Made by a program: the position numbers and the translations under genes. A stretch of 64,000 nt of DNA, taken from contig JAEMGR010000003.1 of assembly GCA_016458225.1 (NCBI GenBank), forward strand, positions 124,001 through 188,000, read 5' to 3'. This document shows positions 37,397 to 48,204 of the stretch, one piece after another; position 1 is the first letter of the stretch; every line of letters starts with the position of its first letter. The notes beneath the pieces were generated by a model. The model had not been told where the DNA came from and ran no database searches. It was given only the letters and a program-made list of their open reading frames with translations. Source of the stretch: Myxococcaceae bacterium JPH2 (GTDB lineage Bacteria > Myxococcota > Myxococcia > Myxococcales > Myxococcaceae).

Positions 37397-37664
37397 GAAG
37401 GGTTCCTGGGCGGCCTCAGGGTCGGCCGCGCGCGGATGATGCCATCAGCGCCCGGAAATCCTGACGCTTCCGTGACCAACCCCTCACCCCGGCGGTTATT
37501 CGCCACCCGCGCGCCATCCCAGGTCCGCCCCGCCCCGTCTCCCTGGGAGTTCAAGGCTTCACGGAAGCGCCGCCCGGACTTCGAGTGCCTACCTGTACGA
37601 GGAAGGGGTGCGCGAAGCCTCAGGCGGGGTGGCCGGGGGAGCGCCCTGGGGGGAGAGCCAAGGC

Positions 37665-39608
37665 ATGGCCCAAGCGGCAGGCGAGTTGGAGGTCGTCATG
37701 GACGCCGCCGTGGACCCGCTGGTGGTGTGCGACGCGGACGAGCGCATCGTCCATGTGAACACGGCCACGGAGCGCCTGCTCGGTTGGAGCCGCGCGCGGC
37801 TGTTGGGCCAGCCGGTGTCGGAGCTGTTCCCTGTCCGGCTGCGGACGTTCGCCGGGCACAGCCTGACGCGCTACCTGCTGTCGCGGCGCGCCGCGCTCGG
37901 AGGGAGGCCCATCCGGGTCTTCGCGCGGCGCGAGGACGGCGTGGAGGTGCTGGTGGAGCTGACCGTGGGCACGGCGGGCGCGGGAGAGCACACGCGCATC
38001 GCGCTCACCTTCCGTCGCCTGCACGAGGTCATCGACACGCTGGACGACCCGGTGGAGAAAGGGCTGCCCGCCCTGGCGCGGCACCTGGACGACCGGGCGA
38101 GGGACCGGCTGTACCGGCTGCTGGTGGAGAACGCCCCGCTCGGCATCTTCCACTTCGACCGCACGCCGGTGGTCACCGCGTGCAACACGCGCTTCGTGGA
38201 CATCCTCGGCTCCTCGAAGCGGATCCTCGTGGGGCTCAACCTGCTCACGCTGCGCGACGACCGGATGATGCAGGCGGTGCGCGAGACGCTGAGGGGCCAC
38301 GCCTCGGACTTCGAGGGGGACTACGTCGCGGTCACCAGTGGCAAGGTGACGCCCGTGCGGGTGCGCTTCGCGCCGTGCTACGCGGAGGACGGCACGACGG
38401 TGGAGGGCGGCGTGGGGCTGGTGGAGGACATCAGCGAGCACCGCCACACCGAGGCGGAGCGCGAGCGCCACCTGGCCCAGCTCGACATGCTCTTCCACAG
38501 CGCGCCCATCGGGCTGGGGTTCGTGGACATGAACCTGCGCTACGCGCGCCTCAACGACGTGCTGGCCCACATCAACGGCGTGCCCGCCGAGAAGCATCTG
38601 GGGCGCCGTCCCCATGAAGTGCTCGGTCCGGCGGGCGGGCCCCTCGAGCGGATGATTCGCCAGGTGATGGCGACGGGCGAGCCCGCGGTGAAGCGCGAGG
38701 TGCGCACCGACGTGGACCTGGGCGCGCCGGGGCCGCGCCGCTACCTGGCGGGCAGCTTCTACCCCGTGCGCGCGCCGGATGGACGCATGCTCGGCGTGGG
38801 CATCCTGGTGGAGGACATCAGCGAGCGCCGCCGCGCGGAAGAGGAGCGCAACCGGCTCTACCGCGAGGCCCAGGAAGCCATCCGCGTGCGCGACGACTTC
38901 CTGTCCATCGCGAGCCACGAGCTGAAGACGCCGCTCACCCCGCTGAGCCTCCGGCTGGAGACCCTGGAGCGGAAGCTGGAGCGGGGCGAGGCCGTGGACG
39001 CGTCCGTGCTGCACCGCGCGCGGCGACAGCTGCTGCGGCTGACGGGGCTCATCAACGACTTGTTGGACGCCTCACGCATCGAGGCCGGGCGGCTGGCGCT
39101 GCACCCGGAGCCCACGCGCTTCGACACGTTGGTGGAGAACGGCGTGCGCGCGATGGAGGCCCAGCGCGACGACCACCTCATCACCTTCGAACATCCGCGC
39201 GAGCCCGTGCGGGTCCATGGCGACTCGTACCGCTTGGAGCAGGTGGTGACGAACCTGTTGGAGAACGCGCTGAAGTACAGCCCGGACGGCGGCACCATCC
39301 GCGTGGCGCTGACGGTGCGCGGGGACGTGGCGCTGTTGTCGGTGACGGACCCGGGCATCGGGATTCCGCCGGACCAGCAGGCGCTCCTGTTCGACCGCTA
39401 CTTCCGCGCGCGCAATGTCTCCGCGCGCTCCTATGGGGGCCTGGGGCTGGGGCTGTACATCAGCCGCGACATCGTCGAGCGACATGGCGGTCGCATCTGG
39501 GTGGAGAGCGAGGTGGGTCACGGCTCCACCTTCTACGTGGCGCTGCCGCTGCTGCCCGTCGCGCACGCGTCGCCGGACACTCCGCAGGCGGGCCCTCCGC
39601 CGCACTGA
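37665..39608 (+). CDS. PAS-domain sensor histidine kinase
   Basis: A 647-aa cytoplasmic kinase. ATG 37665 follows GGGGAGAG at a good distance; the GTG at 37608 would have its ribosome site too close. Three PAS domains lie at about residues 9-119, 150-258 and 270-388, each of the last two ending in a VEDISE(H/R)R linker. The HisKA domain has the phospho-acceptor His at about 418 (IASHELKTPLTPL). The HATPase has N, G1 and G2 boxes (NLLENALKYS; DPGIGIPP; GGLGLGLYI). No transmembrane helix is present, so it senses a cytoplasmic signal. No response regulator gene is adjacent. Confidence 0.93.
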   Translation: MAQAAGELEVVMDAAVDPLVVCDADERIVHVNTATERLLGWSRARLLGQPVSELFPVRLRTFAGHSLTRYLLSRRAALGGRPIRVFARREDGVEVLVELTVGTAGAGEHTRIALTFRRLHEVIDTLDDPVEKGLPALARHLDDRARDRLYRLLVENAPLGIFHFDRTPVVTACNTRFVDILGSSKRILVGLNLLTLRDDRMMQAVRETLRGHASDFEGDYVAVTSGKVTPVRVRFAPCYAEDGTTVEGGVGLVEDISEHRHTEAERERHLAQLDMLFHSAPIGLGFVDMNLRYARLNDVLAHINGVPAEKHLGRRPHEVLGPAGGPLERMIRQVMATGEPAVKREVRTDVDLGAPGPRRYLAGSFYPVRAPDGRMLGVGILVEDISERRRAEEERNRLYREAQEAIRVRDDFLSIASHELKTPLTPLSLRLETLERKLERGEAVDASVLHRARRQLLRLTGLINDLLDASRIEAGRLALHPEPTRFDTLVENGVRAMEAQRDDHLITFEHPREPVRVHGDSYRLEQVVTNLLENALKYSPDGGTIRVALTVRGDVALLSVTDPGIGIPPDQQALLFDRYFRARNVSARSYGGLGLGLYISRDIVERHGGRIWVESEVGHGSTFYVALPLLPVAHASPDTPQAGPPPH

Positions 39609-39918: not shown

Positions 39919-40572
39919 TCACCACCCGTTCTTCTGGCCGTACTCCTGCGCCTCGGACATGAACTTGTGGGTGGACGCGGACATCGTCCACACGAAGTTG
40001 GCGCGGAGCAGGTCCGGGTCATTGATGCCCGGAGTCGGCTTGGGCGGAATCGGCACCTCGGCCTGGACGAAGACCGCCGTGCCGCCACCGCCGTTGCCCT
40101 GGGCGTTGGGCAGGTTGGACAGCTCCGTGCGGATGGTGGAGAGGAACGTGGCCAGCTCCGTCGTCCGCACGCCCGTGAGGTAGAAGAACGCCTGCAGGTT
40201 CTGCACGTCGAAGCCGTACGCGATGAACTGGGACTTGTCCGTGGGGTGGCGGTACACGGAGACGTAGGCGCTGCGCACCGTCACGGGGATGAACGGCGTG
40301 CCCGCGGGCCAGTTGGCGACCTTGGTCGTCGCCGTGGGCAGCGTGGGCAGGGTGGGCACGGAGGTGACGACGCAGTTCGTCCCCGCGTCCGAGGTCCCCG
40401 CGTCCACGCCGGCGTCCGTCGCCGGCAGGAAGATGATGGGCGGCAGCGTGGTGATGGTGGACTGCTGAGACACCTGCGCGGGCGCATCCGACGGCGGGAC
40501 CTCTCCGGCCTCCAGGCCGCAGGCCACCCACGCGAACGCCGAGCACACTCCGAGCACGAAGGCTCGCTTCAT
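39919..40572 (-). CDS. Lipoprotein with Asp-Ala-Gly linker, third gene of the sigma-CHAT locus
   Basis: A 217-aa lipoprotein starting at ATG 40572 with GGGGGAAG upstream. The signal ends in FAWVAC (Cys18). A linker with repeated (T/V)DAG follows at about residues 50-65. The remaining domain contains VTVRSAYVSVYRHPTDKSQFIAYGFDVQNLQAFFYLTG and a Gly-rich loop (NAQGNGGGGTAVF), and is not recognised. It starts 35 bases after the CHAT gene stop, so it is probably co-transcribed with the sigma factor and CHAT genes. It may be an outer-membrane-anchored partner or target. Confidence 0.75.
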   Translation of the reverse strand: MKRAFVLGVCSAFAWVACGLEAGEVPPSDAPAQVSQQSTITTLPPIIFLPATDAGVDAGTSDAGTNCVVTSVPTLPTLPTATTKVANWPAGTPFIPVTVRSAYVSVYRHPTDKSQFIAYGFDVQNLQAFFYLTGVRTTELATFLSTIRTELSNLPNAQGNGGGGTAVFVQAEVPIPPKPTPGINDPDLLRANFVWTMSASTHKFMSEAQEYGQKNGW

Positions 40573-40607
40573 GGCACTTCCCCCTCTGACTGGATGATGA
40601 GTTGTGA

Positions 40608-43600
40608 CTACTCGAAGACAACGACGGTCTGCACCCAACTTCCCGGGTTCCTCCCGAGAACTTCCATCCGCTCGCGCTTCACGGCGACCGAGGGAGACGC
40701 TCCCTCGCGCACGCGGCGGCGCACGGCTTCGAAGAACGCACCCGCCTCGGCGTCCGGGATGTCCGACGGCGACGCGATGACCGCGCGCGCGCCCGCCTCC
40801 AGGAACGCGACCGGCAAGCTCCACGGCTCATGCAGATACGGCGCGGTCTCGGCGGCCCGGCACGACGCCAGGATGACCACCGGCGCGCGCGACAAGTGCT
40901 GGCGGCGCACCTCGCCCGCGGTCAGCGCGTAGCGGCCATCCGCCTGCGCGGACAGCACGATGAGCGACGCATCCGAGATGCCCAGGTTCACCAGCCCGTG
41001 CGCGTGGATGTCGATTTCATCCGCGCCCGGCATCTCCGCCAGGACGCGCTCCGGCGTCGCGGCGGCGCCCGTCAGGTCCACGCGCGGCGCGGCGGGCTCG
41101 GTGCCCGGCAGCCACGCGGACAGCCGCGGCAGGCCCAGCCCCGCGGGCGCGTTCACGTCGCTGACCACCAGCCGCCGGGGCGCGCCCGAGGCCGCCACCG
41201 GGGGCCGAGCGTCCCCGCGCTGGTAGCTCCACGCGAAGTCGGAAGGCAGCAGCCCCGCCCGCCCATGCAAGGGATAGCGGGCAAAGACAGACACGTGCTC
41301 GCAGGGCCGCAGCGCGTCCAGCACCGGCGCGGACACGAGCGAGGGCACATCGAACGCGGGCGCGCTGCGGGTGGTGAGCGTGCCCACGGCCTCGCCCTTC
41401 GCGCCGCGCGCGGCCACCAGCATGCGCTCCTCGGCGATCTCCACGCCCAGCAGACACCGCGTGGGCGCCGCGCCGCCGGACTCGCGGGCGAACCAGTCCA
41501 GCGCCCCCGCGAAGTCTCCCGCGCGACCGGCCTCCAGGATGAGCAGGGAGTAGCTGGCGGCGCGCGCCTTCTGCGCACCGGTGTCCTCGCGCGGCAGCTT
41601 CTCCGCCGCCGCGATGAGGTCCTCCAACTGCCGCCGCCCCGCGACGCGGTCGTGCTCCAGCTCGGCGCGCGCGATGGCGTGGTCCACCATCAACAAGAGC
41701 CCGGGCCGCTTGCCGAGCCCCGGCTGCGTGCGCGCGGACGCCGCGAGCGCGCGCACGGCCTCCAGGTCTCCCGGCCGGGGCGCGACGCGCGACAGGTCCG
41801 CGAGGACCAGCGGACTCAAGGCCGAGCGCGGCGCGCCGCAGTCCGGCACCGCGCCCAGCTCGGTCCGCGCGGCGTCGAAGCGCAGCTCGGAGGACTCCAG
41901 CATCGCGAGCGTCTCGTGCAGGAAGACCTGGGCGGCGCAGACGTCCGGCTGGCGCAGCGCGGACTCGCGAAGGTAGGCGCGCGTGAGCGCGAACGCGTCG
42001 CGGAAGCGGGCGATCTGCCCCAGGTGCTGGAGGAACTGCGTCTCCTGCTCGGGGTCGTTCGAGGCGCGCGCTCGCTCCAGGCCGCGCAGCGCGTGCTCGC
42101 GGGCCTCCACCAGCCGGTGCTGCGACGTGTACAGGTACGTGAGCACCGACTCCAGCTCGCCGCAGCGCGCGTCCAGCTTGCGCAGCTCACAGGCGGGCAG
42201 GGCCTTCAGCAGCATCGCCTCCGCGCTGGCCATCTCGCCGGCCGTCAGCTTCGCCTGCGCGCGCTGCAGCTCCGCGTTGACCTGGAACCACGGGTCGCCC
42301 ACCGCGTCCGCCGCCCGAGCGTAGTCATCCAGCTCCGCGGGCAGCCGGCCCAGCAGCGCGAGCGCGCCGAGCAGGATGTCGGAGTCGCCCGAGGCCCGCA
42401 GCGCCCGCACGAACGCATCCGCGCCCGTCATGTCGAACGCGCCCGTCAGCACCTGGGCGAACGACGTCGCCAGTGGACCTCGGCGCGCGAAGTCCCGCTT
42501 CTGCGTCCGCTCGATGTAGCGGGCCAGCACGTCTCCGCCGTAGTGCGCGTCCAGCTCCCGCGCCTCGGGGAGCAGCGCCCGCACGCGCTCGGCGGTGGGC
42601 GCGGTCCAGGCCGCCAGGTACAAGTACTTGCGCGCGAGCGCCGGCGCCTCGCGCACCAGGGTCGCGGGCAGCGGCGTTCCATCCGCCACCAGCGTCTTGT
42701 TCGCCGTCCACGCCAGGTTCCAGTGGTCCTGCCGGGACTTCGTCTGGCGCCGCACCGCCTCGGCGCGCTCGCGCGCCTCCTGGCTCCAGCCGGGCTCGTT
42801 CAGCGCGGCCACCTGCTCGAAGCCCTCGGCCGCGAGCAGGTCCAGCCCCAGCTCGCGCAACACGAGGCTGCGGTTCCACATCGCCGCCGCGTGCCGAGGC
42901 TCCTTCGCGAGCACGCCCTCCAGCAGCACGAGCGCGTCCTCCAAGTCTCCGCGCTGCAACGCCACCACGGCCCGGTCGCTGTCCACGTCCGGCGAGGACG
43001 GCGCGCGCTTCAGGTCCTCCCGCGCCTGCTCCACTTCGCCGCGCAGCAGGTGCCCCGTGCCCAACCCGTGCAGGTCCCCCGCGGCCTCCAGCTTCGCCAG
43101 CGCCTGGAGCGGCACCAGCTCGCGAGGACGCTCGTCACCCGAGCGCTTCACGCCATAGGGCCGATACCCGCTCGCCCCGGACCAGCTCAGCCGAGCCTCC
43201 AGCGAGCGCGTGGGCGCCAGGGCCAGCGCCTCCGGCCCCACCACCTGCTCCGAGCCATCCGACGTGGGCGAGCGGAACAACGCCAGCGTCAGCGCGGCCG
43301 TCAGCGAACCGCTCAGCGCGACCGCCGCCACCCAGCGACGGCGCCCGCTCCACGCCGGACGGAAGGCGCGGGTGGGCTTCGCCTCGCGGGGAACCTGGGC
43401 GGGAGGCGGCGCGGGGGATTCCGTGTCGCGCGGCGGCGGAACGACGCGCAGCGGACGGGCCTCCTCCTCGGCGCGGATCGCCTCGCCCGCGGACTTGAGC
43501 TCCAGGATGACGTCCAGCTCATCCATGCAGCGCTCGCAAGTGACCAGGTGCTCACGGAAGGACGCGGCCTCCTCCGGCGACAGCTCGTCATCGGCGAACA

Positions 43601-43655
43601 GGTGCACCTGGTCGTGGATGTCCAGCATGTCGAGGTCACGCTCGGAGTCGCTCAT
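40608..43655 (-). CDS. Membrane anti-sigma-like protein fused to a CHAT protease domain
   Basis: A 1015-aa single polypeptide with this order: a zinc-binding anti-sigma domain (residues 18-50, HLVTCERC with His36, Cys40, Cys43), a Pro-rich linker, one membrane helix (about 108-127, WVAAVALSGSLTAALTLALF), then about 650 residues of helical TPR-like repeats, and a C-terminal CHAT domain (about 800-1015). The CHAT catalytic pair is visible: His886 in IDIHAHG and Cys932 in ILASCRAAE. CHAT domains are caspase-like Cys proteases. The gene starts two bases after the ECF sigma stop. I infer that the N-terminus holds the sigma factor and that the protease and TPR part faces the periplasm, but the topology is unproven. 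Confidence 0.88.
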   Translation of the reverse strand: MSDSERDLDMLDIHDQVHLFADDELSPEEAASFREHLVTCERCMDELDVILELKSAGEAIRAEEEARPLRVVPPPRDTESPAPPPAQVPREAKPTRAFRPAWSGRRRWVAAVALSGSLTAALTLALFRSPTSDGSEQVVGPEALALAPTRSLEARLSWSGASGYRPYGVKRSGDERPRELVPLQALAKLEAAGDLHGLGTGHLLRGEVEQAREDLKRAPSSPDVDSDRAVVALQRGDLEDALVLLEGVLAKEPRHAAAMWNRSLVLRELGLDLLAAEGFEQVAALNEPGWSQEARERAEAVRRQTKSRQDHWNLAWTANKTLVADGTPLPATLVREAPALARKYLYLAAWTAPTAERVRALLPEARELDAHYGGDVLARYIERTQKRDFARRGPLATSFAQVLTGAFDMTGADAFVRALRASGDSDILLGALALLGRLPAELDDYARAADAVGDPWFQVNAELQRAQAKLTAGEMASAEAMLLKALPACELRKLDARCGELESVLTYLYTSQHRLVEAREHALRGLERARASNDPEQETQFLQHLGQIARFRDAFALTRAYLRESALRQPDVCAAQVFLHETLAMLESSELRFDAARTELGAVPDCGAPRSALSPLVLADLSRVAPRPGDLEAVRALAASARTQPGLGKRPGLLLMVDHAIARAELEHDRVAGRRQLEDLIAAAEKLPREDTGAQKARAASYSLLILEAGRAGDFAGALDWFARESGGAAPTRCLLGVEIAEERMLVAARGAKGEAVGTLTTRSAPAFDVPSLVSAPVLDALRPCEHVSVFARYPLHGRAGLLPSDFAWSYQRGDARPPVAASGAPRRLVVSDVNAPAGLGLPRLSAWLPGTEPAAPRVDLTGAAATPERVLAEMPGADEIDIHAHGLVNLGISDASLIVLSAQADGRYALTAGEVRRQHLSRAPVVILASCRAAETAPYLHEPWSLPVAFLEAGARAVIASPSDIPDAEAGAFFEAVRRRVREGASPSVAVKRERMEVLGRNPGSWVQTVVVFE

Positions 43656-43657
43656 GG

Positions 43658-44305
43658 CTACTCGGTCTCCGGAGGCTGGGGAGCCAACAGTTCCTTCATC
43701 TTGGTCCGCGCCCGGGCGAGGCGCGTTCCCACCGTGTTCTTGTTGAGACCCAGGTGGTCGGCAATCTCGATGTACGAGCGCCCTTCGATTTCCTTCATCC
43801 GGAACACCGTGCGGAACTCCTCAGGAATCTTCTCCAGCGCCTCGCGAACCTCGGCGGTGCCGAACTTCGCCCACAAGGGCTCGTCCTCGGGAGTCGGCGC
43901 GGCGACCACTTCCTGCACGTCCTCCGCGGACACCCCGGCCCGGCGCTCGCGCAGCTTGAGGCGGTGCCTGTCGAAGAAGAGGTTGCGCTGGACGCGCAGC
44001 AGCCAGGCGCGCGCGTCACTCTGCGTCTTCAATTGCTCGCGGTGACGCCAGGCGCGCTCGTAGGTGTCCTGGAGGATGTCGTTGACGTCCGAGGTGTTCC
44101 CGGCGAGCTGCATGCCCCGCGTGCGCAGCAGGGTCTCGTGCTGGCGAATGAAGGCGTCGAACCAGCGGCGGTCCTGCACTTCCGATGAAGGGGGCTCGCT
44201 CTCCACGCGGGGCACAGGCTGGCTGGTCGGTTCGGGAGCAGTCAAGCGCCGCGAACTCCGAACCGGGGGGAGCTGCCCCATCCACTCCAGCGCAAAAGTA
44301 TCCAT
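43658..44305 (-). CDS. ECF-type RNA polymerase sigma factor
   Basis: A 215-aa sigma-70 family protein. ATG 44305 has a GAGGACGGGG site upstream. Region 2 is seen in RGMQLAGNTSDVNDILQDTYERAWRHREQL with the following AWLLRVQRNLFFDRHR; region 4 is EEFRTVFRMKEIEGRSYIEIADHLGLNKNTVGTRLARARTKMKELL. A non-conserved 45-residue N-terminal extension precedes region 2. It is the first gene of the locus with the CHAT anti-sigma-like protein two bases downstream, which suggests cognate control. The signal and target genes are unknown. Confidence 0.93.
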   Translation of the reverse strand: MDTFALEWMGQLPPVRSSRRLTAPEPTSQPVPRVESEPPSSEVQDRRWFDAFIRQHETLLRTRGMQLAGNTSDVNDILQDTYERAWRHREQLKTQSDARAWLLRVQRNLFFDRHRLKLRERRAGVSAEDVQEVVAAPTPEDEPLWAKFGTAEVREALEKIPEEFRTVFRMKEIEGRSYIEIADHLGLNKNTVGTRLARARTKMKELLAPQPPETE

Positions 44306-44484
44306 GGCGTCCCCGTCCTCAGGCTCTTGCGGCGAGTCCACCGCTCCGCCCCGCTCCGCGCAGCCGCACCCACAACCCCGACGCGTGCATGTCTTCAGTC
44401 CCTCCCTGAACAAGCGGTCCGGCAGGGAAACGAAGCGTGTGGCCAATCTTCCCGGCGGAAATTTCGCGCGATTTCCTCTCGCGC

Positions 44485-45122: not shown

Positions 45123-45713
45123 ATGACGACTCCGGATGATGTCCTGGGCTTCTGGTTCGGCCAGCCCCCCGACCCCACGCGAAACCCCACCTGCGCGAGG
45201 CCCCGCGCCCTGTGGTTCCAACAGGACACGGCCTTTGACCAGGCGTGTCAGCGATTCCTCGACGCGCACACGCAGGCGGCGGCGGGGGACCTGCGGGATT
45301 GGGCCGACGAGCCACGCAGCGCCCTCGCGCTGGTGCTGCTGCTGGACCAGCTTCCGCGCAACCTCTTCCGCGGCACCGCGCGCGCCTTCGCCTCGGATGC
45401 GCGCGCCCGCGAGGTCGCCCGGCGCGCGCTGGCCCGAGGCCTGGACACCGTGCTGCCCCCGGTGTGGCGCTGGTTCATGTACCTGCCGTTCGAGCACAGC
45501 GAGGACGTGAACGACCAGCGGCTCTCGGTCTCCCTGTTCGAGCAGCTCGCCCTGGCGCGCGGCGTGGACAGCACCTCCGCAATTGAGTACGCGCGGCACC
45601 ACCGCGACATCATCGAGCGCTTCGGCCGCTTCCCCCACCGCAACGCGGTGCTGGGCCGCGAGTCCACCCCGGACGAGGTGGCCTTCCTCCAGGAGCCAGG
45701 CTCGTCGTTCTGA
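45123..45713 (+). CDS. DUF924 family protein
   Basis: A 196-aa soluble all-helical protein. It begins MTTPDDVLGFWFG, and has LVLLLDQLPRNLFRGTARAFASDARA and WRWFMYLPFEHSEDVNDQRLSVSLF, the conserved segments of the DUF924 family (TPR-like helical fold). It ends FGRFPHRNAVLGRESTPDEVAFLQEPGSSF, the conserved C-terminal motif. The biochemical role is unknown. It is divergent from the TspO-like gene (116 bases between starts). Confidence 0.9.
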   Translation: MTTPDDVLGFWFGQPPDPTRNPTCARPRALWFQQDTAFDQACQRFLDAHTQAAAGDLRDWADEPRSALALVLLLDQLPRNLFRGTARAFASDARAREVARRALARGLDTVLPPVWRWFMYLPFEHSEDVNDQRLSVSLFEQLALARGVDSTSAIEYARHHRDIIERFGRFPHRNAVLGRESTPDEVAFLQEPGSSF

Positions 45714-45858
45714 CGGAGGCGGGTGGGCCGCCTGGTCGCTCGGTCGGGCTGCGTCCGGCCGTGTGGGTCCACCTCATCGCGCGGAGACGACGCGGGGAGG
45801 ACTGCCGGGTGGCACGAGCGCTGGGGTAGCGTGCGCGCACCGTGCTCGCGGAGGGGAC

Positions 45859-48204
45859 GTGGCGGCAGACATCGCGAACATCATCCAGCAGCGCTGGCGC
45901 AACCAGTGGAAGCAGATGCTGGGGGTCGCCCTGGGCGTCACGCTCGTGGCGGCGCTGTGCGGGTGGCGCGGGCTGTTGGATGACGCCGAGCACAGCGCCT
46001 ACGACAAGGCGCTCACCACGTACACCCGCGCGCCCGGCCCGTCCTCGCGCGTGGTGGTGGTGGCCATCGACCAGTCGAGCCTGGACGAGATGGGCCGCGA
46101 CGAGCAGTACCGCCGCAACTTCGGCATCTGGCCCTTCAGCCGCAACCTGTGGGCGCGCGTGGTGGAGGAGCTGAAGGCCCGCGGCGCACGCGCGGTCCTC
46201 TTCGACGCGGTGATGCAGGAGGCCTCCACCGACGAGGCCATGGACCTGTCGTTCGCCCAGGTGCTGCGCGACACGCACCTGCCCTTCTACCTGGGGCTCT
46301 CCACCAACGGCTCGGCGCTCCCGCTGCCGCGCGCGGACGCCTCGGCGCCCCACCCCGTCGCGAACAACCCCGCCCCCACCGAGTCCGCGCCCGTCCAGGC
46401 CGTGCCCTCCGGCGAGGAGGAGTTCACCGACGCGCCCGAGGCCGCGACGCCCACGGTGACGCCCGAGGAGCTGGCCCGAGCCCTGGCCTTCCCGGCGCAT
46501 CGCGACGACGCGCGGCTCCTGCCCACGCTGGAGTACGTGGCCAGCGATGGGGCTCGGCGCATGCGCTACCCCGTCCCCCCCATCCCCGCCCTGGTCGGCG
46601 CGGCGAGCGGCTTCGGCCTGGTGGACACGGAGGTGGACGCGGACGGCTTCATGCGGCGCACGCGCTTCGCGTACACGGACGGCACCAACACCTACGCCAC
46701 GCTGCCGACGCGGCTCGCGGCGGACCTGCTGGGCGCGAAGGACGTCCAGCTGTCGGGGCGCACGCTCACGATCGGCGAGCGCCACTTCCGCGTGGACTCC
46801 GACGGCAGCGCGGCCATCGACTATGGCGGCGCGCTGCACGAGCGCTTCCAGCTGGTGCGCTTGGTGGACGTGCTGGAGGACTGGGCGCGGCGCCAGCAGG
46901 GCCAGCCCTCGCGCCTGCCCGCGGACACCTTCACCGGCAAGGTGGTGGTGCTGGGCGGCACCGCGCTGGGCGTCAACGACATCAAGGCCACGCCCTTCTC
47001 CGCCGCCGAGCCAGGATTGGTGAAGCAGGCCGCCGTGGTGGATGCGCTCCTGGGTGGCGCGTTCATCACCCGCGCGGCGCCCTGGGTGGACCTCACCGTC
47101 ACCTTCCTGGTGGCGCTGGTGTCCGCGGTGCTGCTGATGACCGCGCGCTGGACGCCGCTGGAGGTGCTGTGGCCCGTGGCCATCTTCTTCGGATTGCACC
47201 TGGTGACGGGGCTCTTCCTGCGCACCGCGCACACGCACGTGCTCACCGCGATGCCGTCCCTGGCTGGCGTGGGCGCCAGCGTGGGCGCGCTGGCCTTCAA
47301 TCACTTGCTGGCCAACCGCGAGGCGGAGTTCATCCGGCAGACCTTCAGCCGCTTCATGGACGCGCGGCTGGTGGACCAGATGCTGAAGGGCCAGCAGCTC
47401 CCGCGCCTGGATGGCGAGAACAAGGAGATCACCGCCTTCTTCAGCGACATCCGCGGCTTCTCCACCTTCAGCGAGCGCTTCAAGGAGGACCCGCGCGCGC
47501 TGGCCCGCATCCTCAACACGTACCTGACGCGGGTGACGAACGCGCTCCTGCGCGAGGGCGCGTGCCTGGACAAGTACATCGGCGACGCGGTGGTGTGCCT
47601 CTTCGGCGCGCCCATGGCGCAAGCGGACCACGCGGTGCGCGCCTGCCGAGGAGCGCTGGCCGCGAAGGCGGAGGTGGATGCGCTCCGTGAAGAGTTCCGA
47701 GCCAAGGGCCTCCCGGACGTGTACACGCGCATCGGCGTCAACAGCGCGGTCAACTTCGTGGGCAACTTCGGCAGCGAGCAGCACTTCAGCTACACGGCCA
47801 TCGGTGACGGGATGAACCTGGCGGCGCGCCTGGAGGGCGCGAACAAGGCCTATGGCTCGCTCATCATGATTGGCCCGCGCACCTACGAGCTGGCGCGCGA
47901 GCACATCGAGGTGCGGGAGCTGGACCGCGTGCGCGTCGCGGGCAAGACGGAAGCCGTCACGGTGTACGAGCTGCTGGCCCTCAAGGGCGGGCTGAGCGCG
48001 CGCACGCGGCACACGGTGGAGCGCTACCACGCGGCGCTCGCGCTCTATCGCGAGGCGCGCTTCGCGGACGCGGCCAGCGCGCTCGAGGCGTTGCGGCGCG
48101 AGGACCCGGACGACGGGCCCACGAAAGCGCTGCTGGAGCGCTGCCACGAGTACTTGGAAAACCCACCCGCGGTGTTCGACGGCGTGGCCAACCTGGAGAA
48201 GTGA
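45859..48204 (+). CDS. CHASE2-domain adenylate/guanylate cyclase
   Basis: A 781-aa membrane receptor. GTG 45859 has GAGGGG six bases upstream. After one N-terminal helix (about 19-39) comes a periplasmic CHASE2 domain (VVVVAIDQSSLDEMGRD through LGVNDIKATPFS, about 50-385) with a Pro/Ala-rich insert, then three membrane helices (about 409-428, 436-454, 461-484) and a class III cyclase domain with metal-binding Asp residues in FFSDIRGFS and YIGDAVVCLFG. The last 90 residues are TPR-like (ARTRHTVERYHAALALYREARFADAASALEAL). It should make cAMP (or cGMP) in response to a periplasmic signal. It begins an operon with an SH3 protein and an M48 protease. Confidence 0.93.
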   Translation: MAADIANIIQQRWRNQWKQMLGVALGVTLVAALCGWRGLLDDAEHSAYDKALTTYTRAPGPSSRVVVVAIDQSSLDEMGRDEQYRRNFGIWPFSRNLWARVVEELKARGARAVLFDAVMQEASTDEAMDLSFAQVLRDTHLPFYLGLSTNGSALPLPRADASAPHPVANNPAPTESAPVQAVPSGEEEFTDAPEAATPTVTPEELARALAFPAHRDDARLLPTLEYVASDGARRMRYPVPPIPALVGAASGFGLVDTEVDADGFMRRTRFAYTDGTNTYATLPTRLAADLLGAKDVQLSGRTLTIGERHFRVDSDGSAAIDYGGALHERFQLVRLVDVLEDWARRQQGQPSRLPADTFTGKVVVLGGTALGVNDIKATPFSAAEPGLVKQAAVVDALLGGAFITRAAPWVDLTVTFLVALVSAVLLMTARWTPLEVLWPVAIFFGLHLVTGLFLRTAHTHVLTAMPSLAGVGASVGALAFNHLLANREAEFIRQTFSRFMDARLVDQMLKGQQLPRLDGENKEITAFFSDIRGFSTFSERFKEDPRALARILNTYLTRVTNALLREGACLDKYIGDAVVCLFGAPMAQADHAVRACRGALAAKAEVDALREEFRAKGLPDVYTRIGVNSAVNFVGNFGSEQHFSYTAIGDGMNLAARLEGANKAYGSLIMIGPRTYELAREHIEVRELDRVRVAGKTEAVTVYELLALKGGLSARTRHTVERYHAALALYREARFADAASALEALRREDPDDGPTKALLERCHEYLENPPAVFDGVANLEK

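Follow-up and report, generated by a model that had tools for sequence, protein, structure and literature searches.

In Myxococcus xanthus, the extracytoplasmic function (ECF) sigma factor DdvS and its anti-sigma factor DdvA form an established pair in which DdvS becomes active once DdvA is inactivated (PMC4374960), and a review places an island of cyclic oligonucleotide-based antiphage signaling system (CBASS) and clustered regularly interspaced short palindromic repeat (CRISPR) genes under DdvS (PMC12288465). A tetratricopeptide repeat (TPR) protein with a CHAT domain also acts on an anti-sigma factor in the type III-E CRISPR system Craspase, where Csx29 cuts Csx30 and relieves the ECF sigma factor CASP-sigma (PMC10028731). 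CHAT proteins occur in the genomic context of ECF54 sigma factors, a group described without an anti-sigma factor (PMC8999054), and class I zinc anti-sigma factors such as RseA and RsiW are cut by a separate site-1 protease (DegS for RseA; PMC10028731). Here we describe an operon that pairs an ECF sigma factor with a membrane-anchored TPR-CHAT anti-sigma factor of the DdvA type, a candidate stress switch, in a 64,000-nucleotide stretch of DNA (the window) from Myxococcaceae bacterium JPH2 (GenBank assembly GCA_016458225.1, contig JAEMGR010000003.1, positions 124,001 to 188,000 of the forward strand). The host is a predatory soil bacterium.

The operon and its relation to known systems

All features of the operon lie on the minus strand and are given in window positions. 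The genes run from a 215-residue ECF sigma factor (43658..44305), across 2 bases, to a 1,015-residue anti-sigma/CHAT open reading frame (ORF; 40608..43655), and across 35 bases to a 217-residue lipoprotein (39919..40572, ATG at 40572). These three ORFs and their spacings are exactly as an initial annotation of the window had them, and its positions for His36, Cys40, Cys43, His886, and Cys932 are all exact in the translation. The sigma factor exceeds the Pfam cutoffs for Sigma70_r2 and Sigma70_r4_2, and its start ATG, with the conserved N terminus MDxFAL, is kept among orthologues. In the 1,015-residue protein, Pfam finds a zf-HC2 zinc finger at residues 12 to 43 (43527..43622; E value 1.9e-8, above cutoff) and CHAT at residues 861 to 1001 (E value 1.2e-15), with weak TPR matches. 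An AlphaFold2 model (predicted local distance difference test [pLDDT] score 88, predicted template modeling score 0.82) has TPR-like helical repeats at residues 183 to 726 (41478..43109) and a CHAT fold, caspase/separase-like, that occupies residues 735 to 1015 (40611..41453), whose dyad codons lie at 40998-41000 (His886) and 40860-40862 (Cys932). Hydropathy adds a hydrophobic helix at about residues 109 to 127 (43275..43331). The membrane helix, TPR-like stretch, and CHAT domain that the initial annotation proposed are therefore all present.

A profile match to the DdvA structures (PDB 8rot and 8rw5) spans the full length of the protein (E value 6e-252), the single sequence matches DdvA with an E value of 7.4e-121, and the finger is homologous to that of PDB 8rlz, "Antisigma factor DdvA." The model superimposes on the cryo-electron microscopy structure of DdvA (8rot) over 868 residues with 36% identity (Z score 44.7, root mean square deviation 4.3); further structural matches are Csx29 (Z about 21), separase (about 19), and gingipain, past which they are mostly generic TPR proteins. 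The JPH2 protein belongs to the DdvA-type transmembrane TPR-CHAT anti-sigma family, and its C-terminal domain is a CHAT cysteine-protease fold with a His-Cys dyad and predicted proteolytic activity. Because DdvA matches it full length in sequence and fold, the fused finger-TPR-CHAT architecture was already known, and the earlier view that zinc finger, sigma factor, and CHAT families had been known only separately has to be given up: M. xanthus DdvA has the whole architecture, and its structure is solved.

Like the JPH2 operon, the DdvS-DdvA system (8rot, 8rw5, 8rlz; Bernal-Bernal 2018, NAR gky475, and 2024, Sci Adv eadp1053, cited in PMC12288465) sets an ECF sigma factor beside a transmembrane zinc-finger anti-sigma factor with a TPR-CHAT C terminus, but the two anti-sigma factors are only about 36% identical and fall in separate clades, and the active-site motif is His-Ala-His in JPH2 and Ala-Thr-His in DdvA. 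The JPH2 system also differs from DdvA in its likely HHCC finger, its lipoprotein gene, its predicted regulon of exported proteins, and a finger-less paralogue with the same promoter. The PDB title describes DdvA as dimeric, and its active sites are reportedly placed at the dimer interface; the authors of its structure reportedly proposed trans-autoproteolysis, with RseP and a CHCC finger.

Craspase is the best functional precedent, since it too ties a TPR-CHAT protein to an anti-sigma factor and an ECF sigma factor, and the CHAT folds align. It differs in its activation by target RNA through Cas7-11, in keeping protease and anti-sigma factor separate, and in having no fused membrane anchor; given its membrane helix and gene context, the JPH2 protein is unlikely to be a Craspase TPR-CHAT (Cas7-11 was not searched for). 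RseA and RsiW share with the JPH2 protein an N-terminal anti-sigma domain, a single membrane helix, an adjacent sigma gene, and probably a site-2 protease, but in JPH2 the protease fold is fused or carried on a coregulated paralogue. An ECF54-type association does not fit either, as the JPH2 CHAT protein bears an anti-sigma finger and CHAT is part of the anti-sigma factor itself.

Conservation of sigma adjacency and of the CHAT dyad

We scanned 195 Myxococcota genomes and found the family in 67, almost all from the same taxonomic family as the window; a scan of named genomes gave 68 loci, nearly all in Myxococcus, Pyxidicoccus, Corallococcus, Citreicoccus, Archangium, and Hyalangium, the closest being that of Citreicoccus inhibens (96%). 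JPH2 itself encodes six TPR-CHAT proteins of the family and one short CHAT-less anti-sigma factor. Comparisons were made on 74 full-length members, 37 with the zinc finger (finger-bearing) and 37 without it (finger-less).

An ECF sigma gene lies directly upstream of every finger-bearing member (37/37) and of no finger-less one (0/37), and finger presence switches three times on the tree versus 25 in shuffles. Because the arrangement recurs in all 37 finger-bearing relatives, a chance arrangement or misread ORF is ruled out. The cross-genome search that the initial annotation called for thus finds a sigma gene wherever there is a finger, and we judge its assignment of the 1,015-residue protein as the anti-sigma factor of the adjacent sigma factor to be right. 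His36, Cys40, and Cys43 are kept in 37/37 finger-bearing relatives; residue 14, His in JPH2 and Cys in 28 of the 37, is likely the fourth ligand of a predicted HHCC finger. All 74 relatives, about 40% identical, keep both His886 and Cys932, and the two residues stand among just 41 invariant columns of a 56-sequence alignment, in keeping with the built-in CHAT domain with an intact His/Cys pair that was first noted.

Variant arrangements were also seen. Complete sigma/anti-sigma-CHAT operons occur as tandem pairs at loci L056, L062, L065, and L109. In two species, the full sigma gene of such an operon comes after a short piece of an ECF sigma gene that has region 2 but seems to lack region 4 (L009, 9461-9898, minus strand; L071, 3515-3949). 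Elsewhere in the JPH2 genome (L008, 5566-10385; contig C5, about 402 to 407 kb), a sigma-like gene and a gene for an anti-sigma-like membrane protein stand beside the gene of another kind of TPR-CHAT protein, exported and with a membrane helix at its C terminus, perhaps a second, unrelated CHAT-sigma pairing. The TPR-CHAT of L099 falls inside Myxococcus; its record is titled Comamonas sp. KCTC 72670 and is probably mislabeled or contaminated.

Predicted membrane topology

The JPH2 protein has seven lysines and arginines before the membrane helix and one after it, and 35 of the 37 finger-bearing relatives show the same bias. Most members have, besides Cys932, three conserved pairs of cysteines: Cys734/785, at the start of CHAT, is kept in 74/74 members; Cys489/498 is complete in 72, absent from 1, and half present in 1; and Cys573 (or 576)/606 is complete in 71 and absent from 3. 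Because of the charge bias and the paired cysteines, a disulfide pattern, the N terminus is predicted to be inside and the TPR-CHAT part should lie in the periplasm behind the single membrane helix; a cytoplasmic CHAT is disfavored on the same grounds. From its predicted location, CHAT would be unable to cut the cytoplasmic finger and could therefore make the first cut at most, so that a site-2 protease would still be needed. M50 proteases, which are site-2 candidates, were found in the JPH2 genome and likewise in every control genome.

This prediction also bears on the initial annotation, which had asked for the topology of the helix region to be mapped and had suggested that a built-in protease may take the place of separate site-1 and site-2 proteases. 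The fused CHAT and its intact dyad stand, whereas CHAT would at best serve as the site-1 protease, and the idea that it frees the sigma factor directly overlooked a finger and a protease domain predicted on opposite sides of the membrane.

A shared promoter motif and the predicted regulon

A predicted ECF promoter, GGGAAGA-N14-CGTT (44429..44453, minus strand), precedes the sigma gene, suggesting autoregulation, and is kept in 11/11 orthologous loci. It is the only match in the window (0.02 expected), and the 9.0-Mb JPH2 genome has 8 exact sites versus about 2.5 expected from composition, with G+C taken near 70%. Seven of the 8 sites sit 24 to 123 bases ahead of a start codon, and the genes they precede are the sigma gene, a finger-less TPR-CHAT paralogue on contig C2, and genes for five exported proteins of 177, 132, over 1,200, 878, and 863 residues. 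Pfam assigned no family to these five, giving just a weak Exo_endo_phos match below cutoff; among the ORFs at the predicted sites, one is weakly nuclease-like and none is a cas or CBASS gene. Nine genomes together have 51 sites, of which 34 lie ahead of exported-like ORFs, versus 7.6% of random positions, and 7 of the rest ahead of the sigma gene. Four genomes not used before contributed 27 sites, of which 4 lie ahead of sigma genes and 14 ahead of exported-like ORFs, including 3 finger-less TPR-CHATs. In Archangium, the sigma gene and the gene for the orthologue of one exported protein point away from each other, each with its own motif. Judged by these sites, the sigma factor appears to control its own operon, a set of exported proteins, and the finger-less TPR-CHAT.

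A related match, GGGAA-N16-CGTT at 40620-40644 ahead of the lipoprotein gene, was not counted, since it lies inside the conserved end of the CHAT coding sequence and is found elsewhere only at the near-identical locus L044. Motifs were also sought for the L012, L013, and DdvA clades, and none was resolved.

Loci in which CHAT and finger are separate

All five members first seen of the clade of the contig C2 paralogue carry GGGAAGA-N14-CGTT, and 8 of the 12 genomes with the JPH2-type sigma factor have such a finger-less TPR-CHAT with the motif; two genes in Hyalangium carry it as well. In Myxococcus sp. RHSTA-1-4 (L101), the orthologue of the JPH2 anti-sigma factor ends after the first TPRs, with CHAT and the lipoprotein lost and the sigma gene and promoter kept; the same genome retains the finger-less TPR-CHAT (L215) and its lipoprotein, with the motif. 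A separate split clade, in Myxococcus, Pyxidicoccus, Corallococcus, and Citreicoccus, has a finger-less CHAT gene followed by a sigma gene and a short protein of finger, membrane helix, and TPRs that ends at profile position about 405 or 210. Its promoter, TCAAG-N15-CGTC, precedes the sigma gene in 17/20 loci and the CHAT gene in 10/20, contig ends having cut several loci, and occurs elsewhere once in 226 kb. Because both split systems keep shared promoters, CHAT is predicted to remain in the same circuit whether it is fused or separate.

Beside finger-less TPR-CHAT genes we also noted, on the opposite strand, a gene for a Cupin_8/JmjC-like hydroxylase (L011, 4130-5146, and about 20 other loci, e.g., L067, L070, and L084); the L013 clade has two or three such genes in a row.

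The operon lipoprotein

Related lipoproteins follow 9 of the 10 full-length copies, and the lipobox Cys18 is invariant across 14 sequences. Pfam gave no family for the JPH2 lipoprotein or its counterparts, and its AlphaFold2 model is of low confidence (pLDDT 51). Similar lipoproteins also follow a finger-less clade (hhalign, 91% over 36 columns), and none was found directly downstream in the split, L012, and L013 clades. Because a related lipoprotein follows finger-less proteins and the lipoprotein was lost together with CHAT in L101, it is tied to CHAT and not to the finger; it may be a ligand, an inhibitor, or a substrate. Anti-sigma genes of the DdvA clade are followed by a gene (L064, 8020-8760; L079, 4609-5214; L108, 8107-8787) whose product has no evident signal peptide and contains repeats like the F.A.G.....F..G stretch of the lipoprotein.

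A proposed mechanism and its alternatives

We lean toward reading the locus as a membrane stress switch like DdvS-DdvA, opened by a CHAT cut, in cis or in trans, and then by a site-2 cut. At rest, the cytoplasmic zinc finger would hold the sigma factor, with one membrane helix linking it to the periplasmic TPR-CHAT part. An envelope signal, perhaps relayed by the operon lipoprotein, would activate the CHAT dyad, which would cut the periplasmic linker near the membrane, either in the same chain or in that of a partner, and a site-2 protease would then release the sigma factor to transcribe its own operon and several exported proteins. In many species, the free sigma factor would also induce the membrane-bound finger-less TPR-CHAT and the lipoprotein that goes with it, giving feedback, and that TPR-CHAT could replace the fused CHAT in trans. 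A stronger version is tentative, and we give it somewhat less than even chances: a two-protein DdvA switch in which the induced finger-less protein cuts the anti-sigma factor in trans, within mixed dimers, with a positive feedback that permits loss of CHAT. The sequence itself shows the architecture, membership of the DdvA fold family, the sigma adjacency, the intact dyad, the shared promoter motif, and the natural CHAT-less versions; the proteolytic steps are suggested with help from the Csx29 precedent.

We infer, rather than observe, zinc binding, sigma binding, the periplasmic location, any proteolysis, the order of cuts, the role of the lipoprotein, and the signal. Several points weigh against this proposal. 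A periplasmic Cys932 would need to escape oxidation, ligand binding may be what the conserved dyad is for, and since L101 and the split clade have anti-sigma factors without CHAT, some systems can do without CHAT in cis. Among the 12 genomes with the JPH2-type sigma factor, four (two of Archangium, M. dinghuensis, and P. caerfyrddinensis) show no finger-less TPR-CHAT behind an exact motif site, and motif sites from related genomes do not count as independent. The authors of the DdvA structure reportedly describe its CHAT active site as incomplete. A literature search, with the primary DdvA papers outside its coverage, found no proof that a DdvA-type CHAT works as a site-1 protease.

CHAT could instead be a sensor and dimerization module, a ligand reshaping the periplasmic part so that the first cut falls to a conventional site-1 protease, whether of the DegS type or not. 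The TPR architecture suits ligand binding, anti-sigma factors without CHAT occur in two clades, and CHAT cleavage is itself deduced; we nevertheless find this rather unlikely, given a dyad that is invariant even in finger-less copies unable to hold a sigma factor. It is less probable still that the substrate of CHAT is a different envelope protein, for instance the lipoprotein of the operon, the fusion only coupling the protease to regulation while sigma release proceeds separately. Although the lipoproteins follow both the JPH2 clade and a finger-less clade and disappear with CHAT in L101, the clades with no such gene directly downstream speak against this, and the lipoprotein could equally be a ligand or inhibitor. 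Least credible, and in our estimate very improbable, is a simple DdvA orthologue governing an anti-phage island. Fold and gene order are shared, and DdvS controls such an island (PMC12288465), but on the tree DdvA groups with L064, L079, and L108, apart from the JPH2 protein, which disfavors orthology; the best DdvA match within the JPH2 genome is 39%, and the predicted regulon is one of exported proteins of no known family, not defense genes.

Under the switch that we favor, what appears new relative to DdvA is the distinct regulon, the coregulated finger-less TPR-CHAT, and the natural CHAT-less anti-sigma factors. The fused, split, and CHAT-less systems of the family are natural experiments, in which every CHAT domain has an intact dyad, and the regulon can be predicted from a short promoter motif; the two TPR-CHAT copies, fused and stand-alone, raise the question of which opens the switch. 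If action in trans holds true, a caspase/separase-type module would control transcription across a bacterial membrane with feedback, in parallel to the freeing of an ECF sigma factor by Craspase.

Neighboring genes

A PAS histidine kinase gene (window positions 37608-39608, plus strand) is convergent with the operon, and upstream of the operon lies a gene that appears to encode a CHASE2-adenylate cyclase (45583-48204, plus strand); both neighbors are kept in several orthologous loci.

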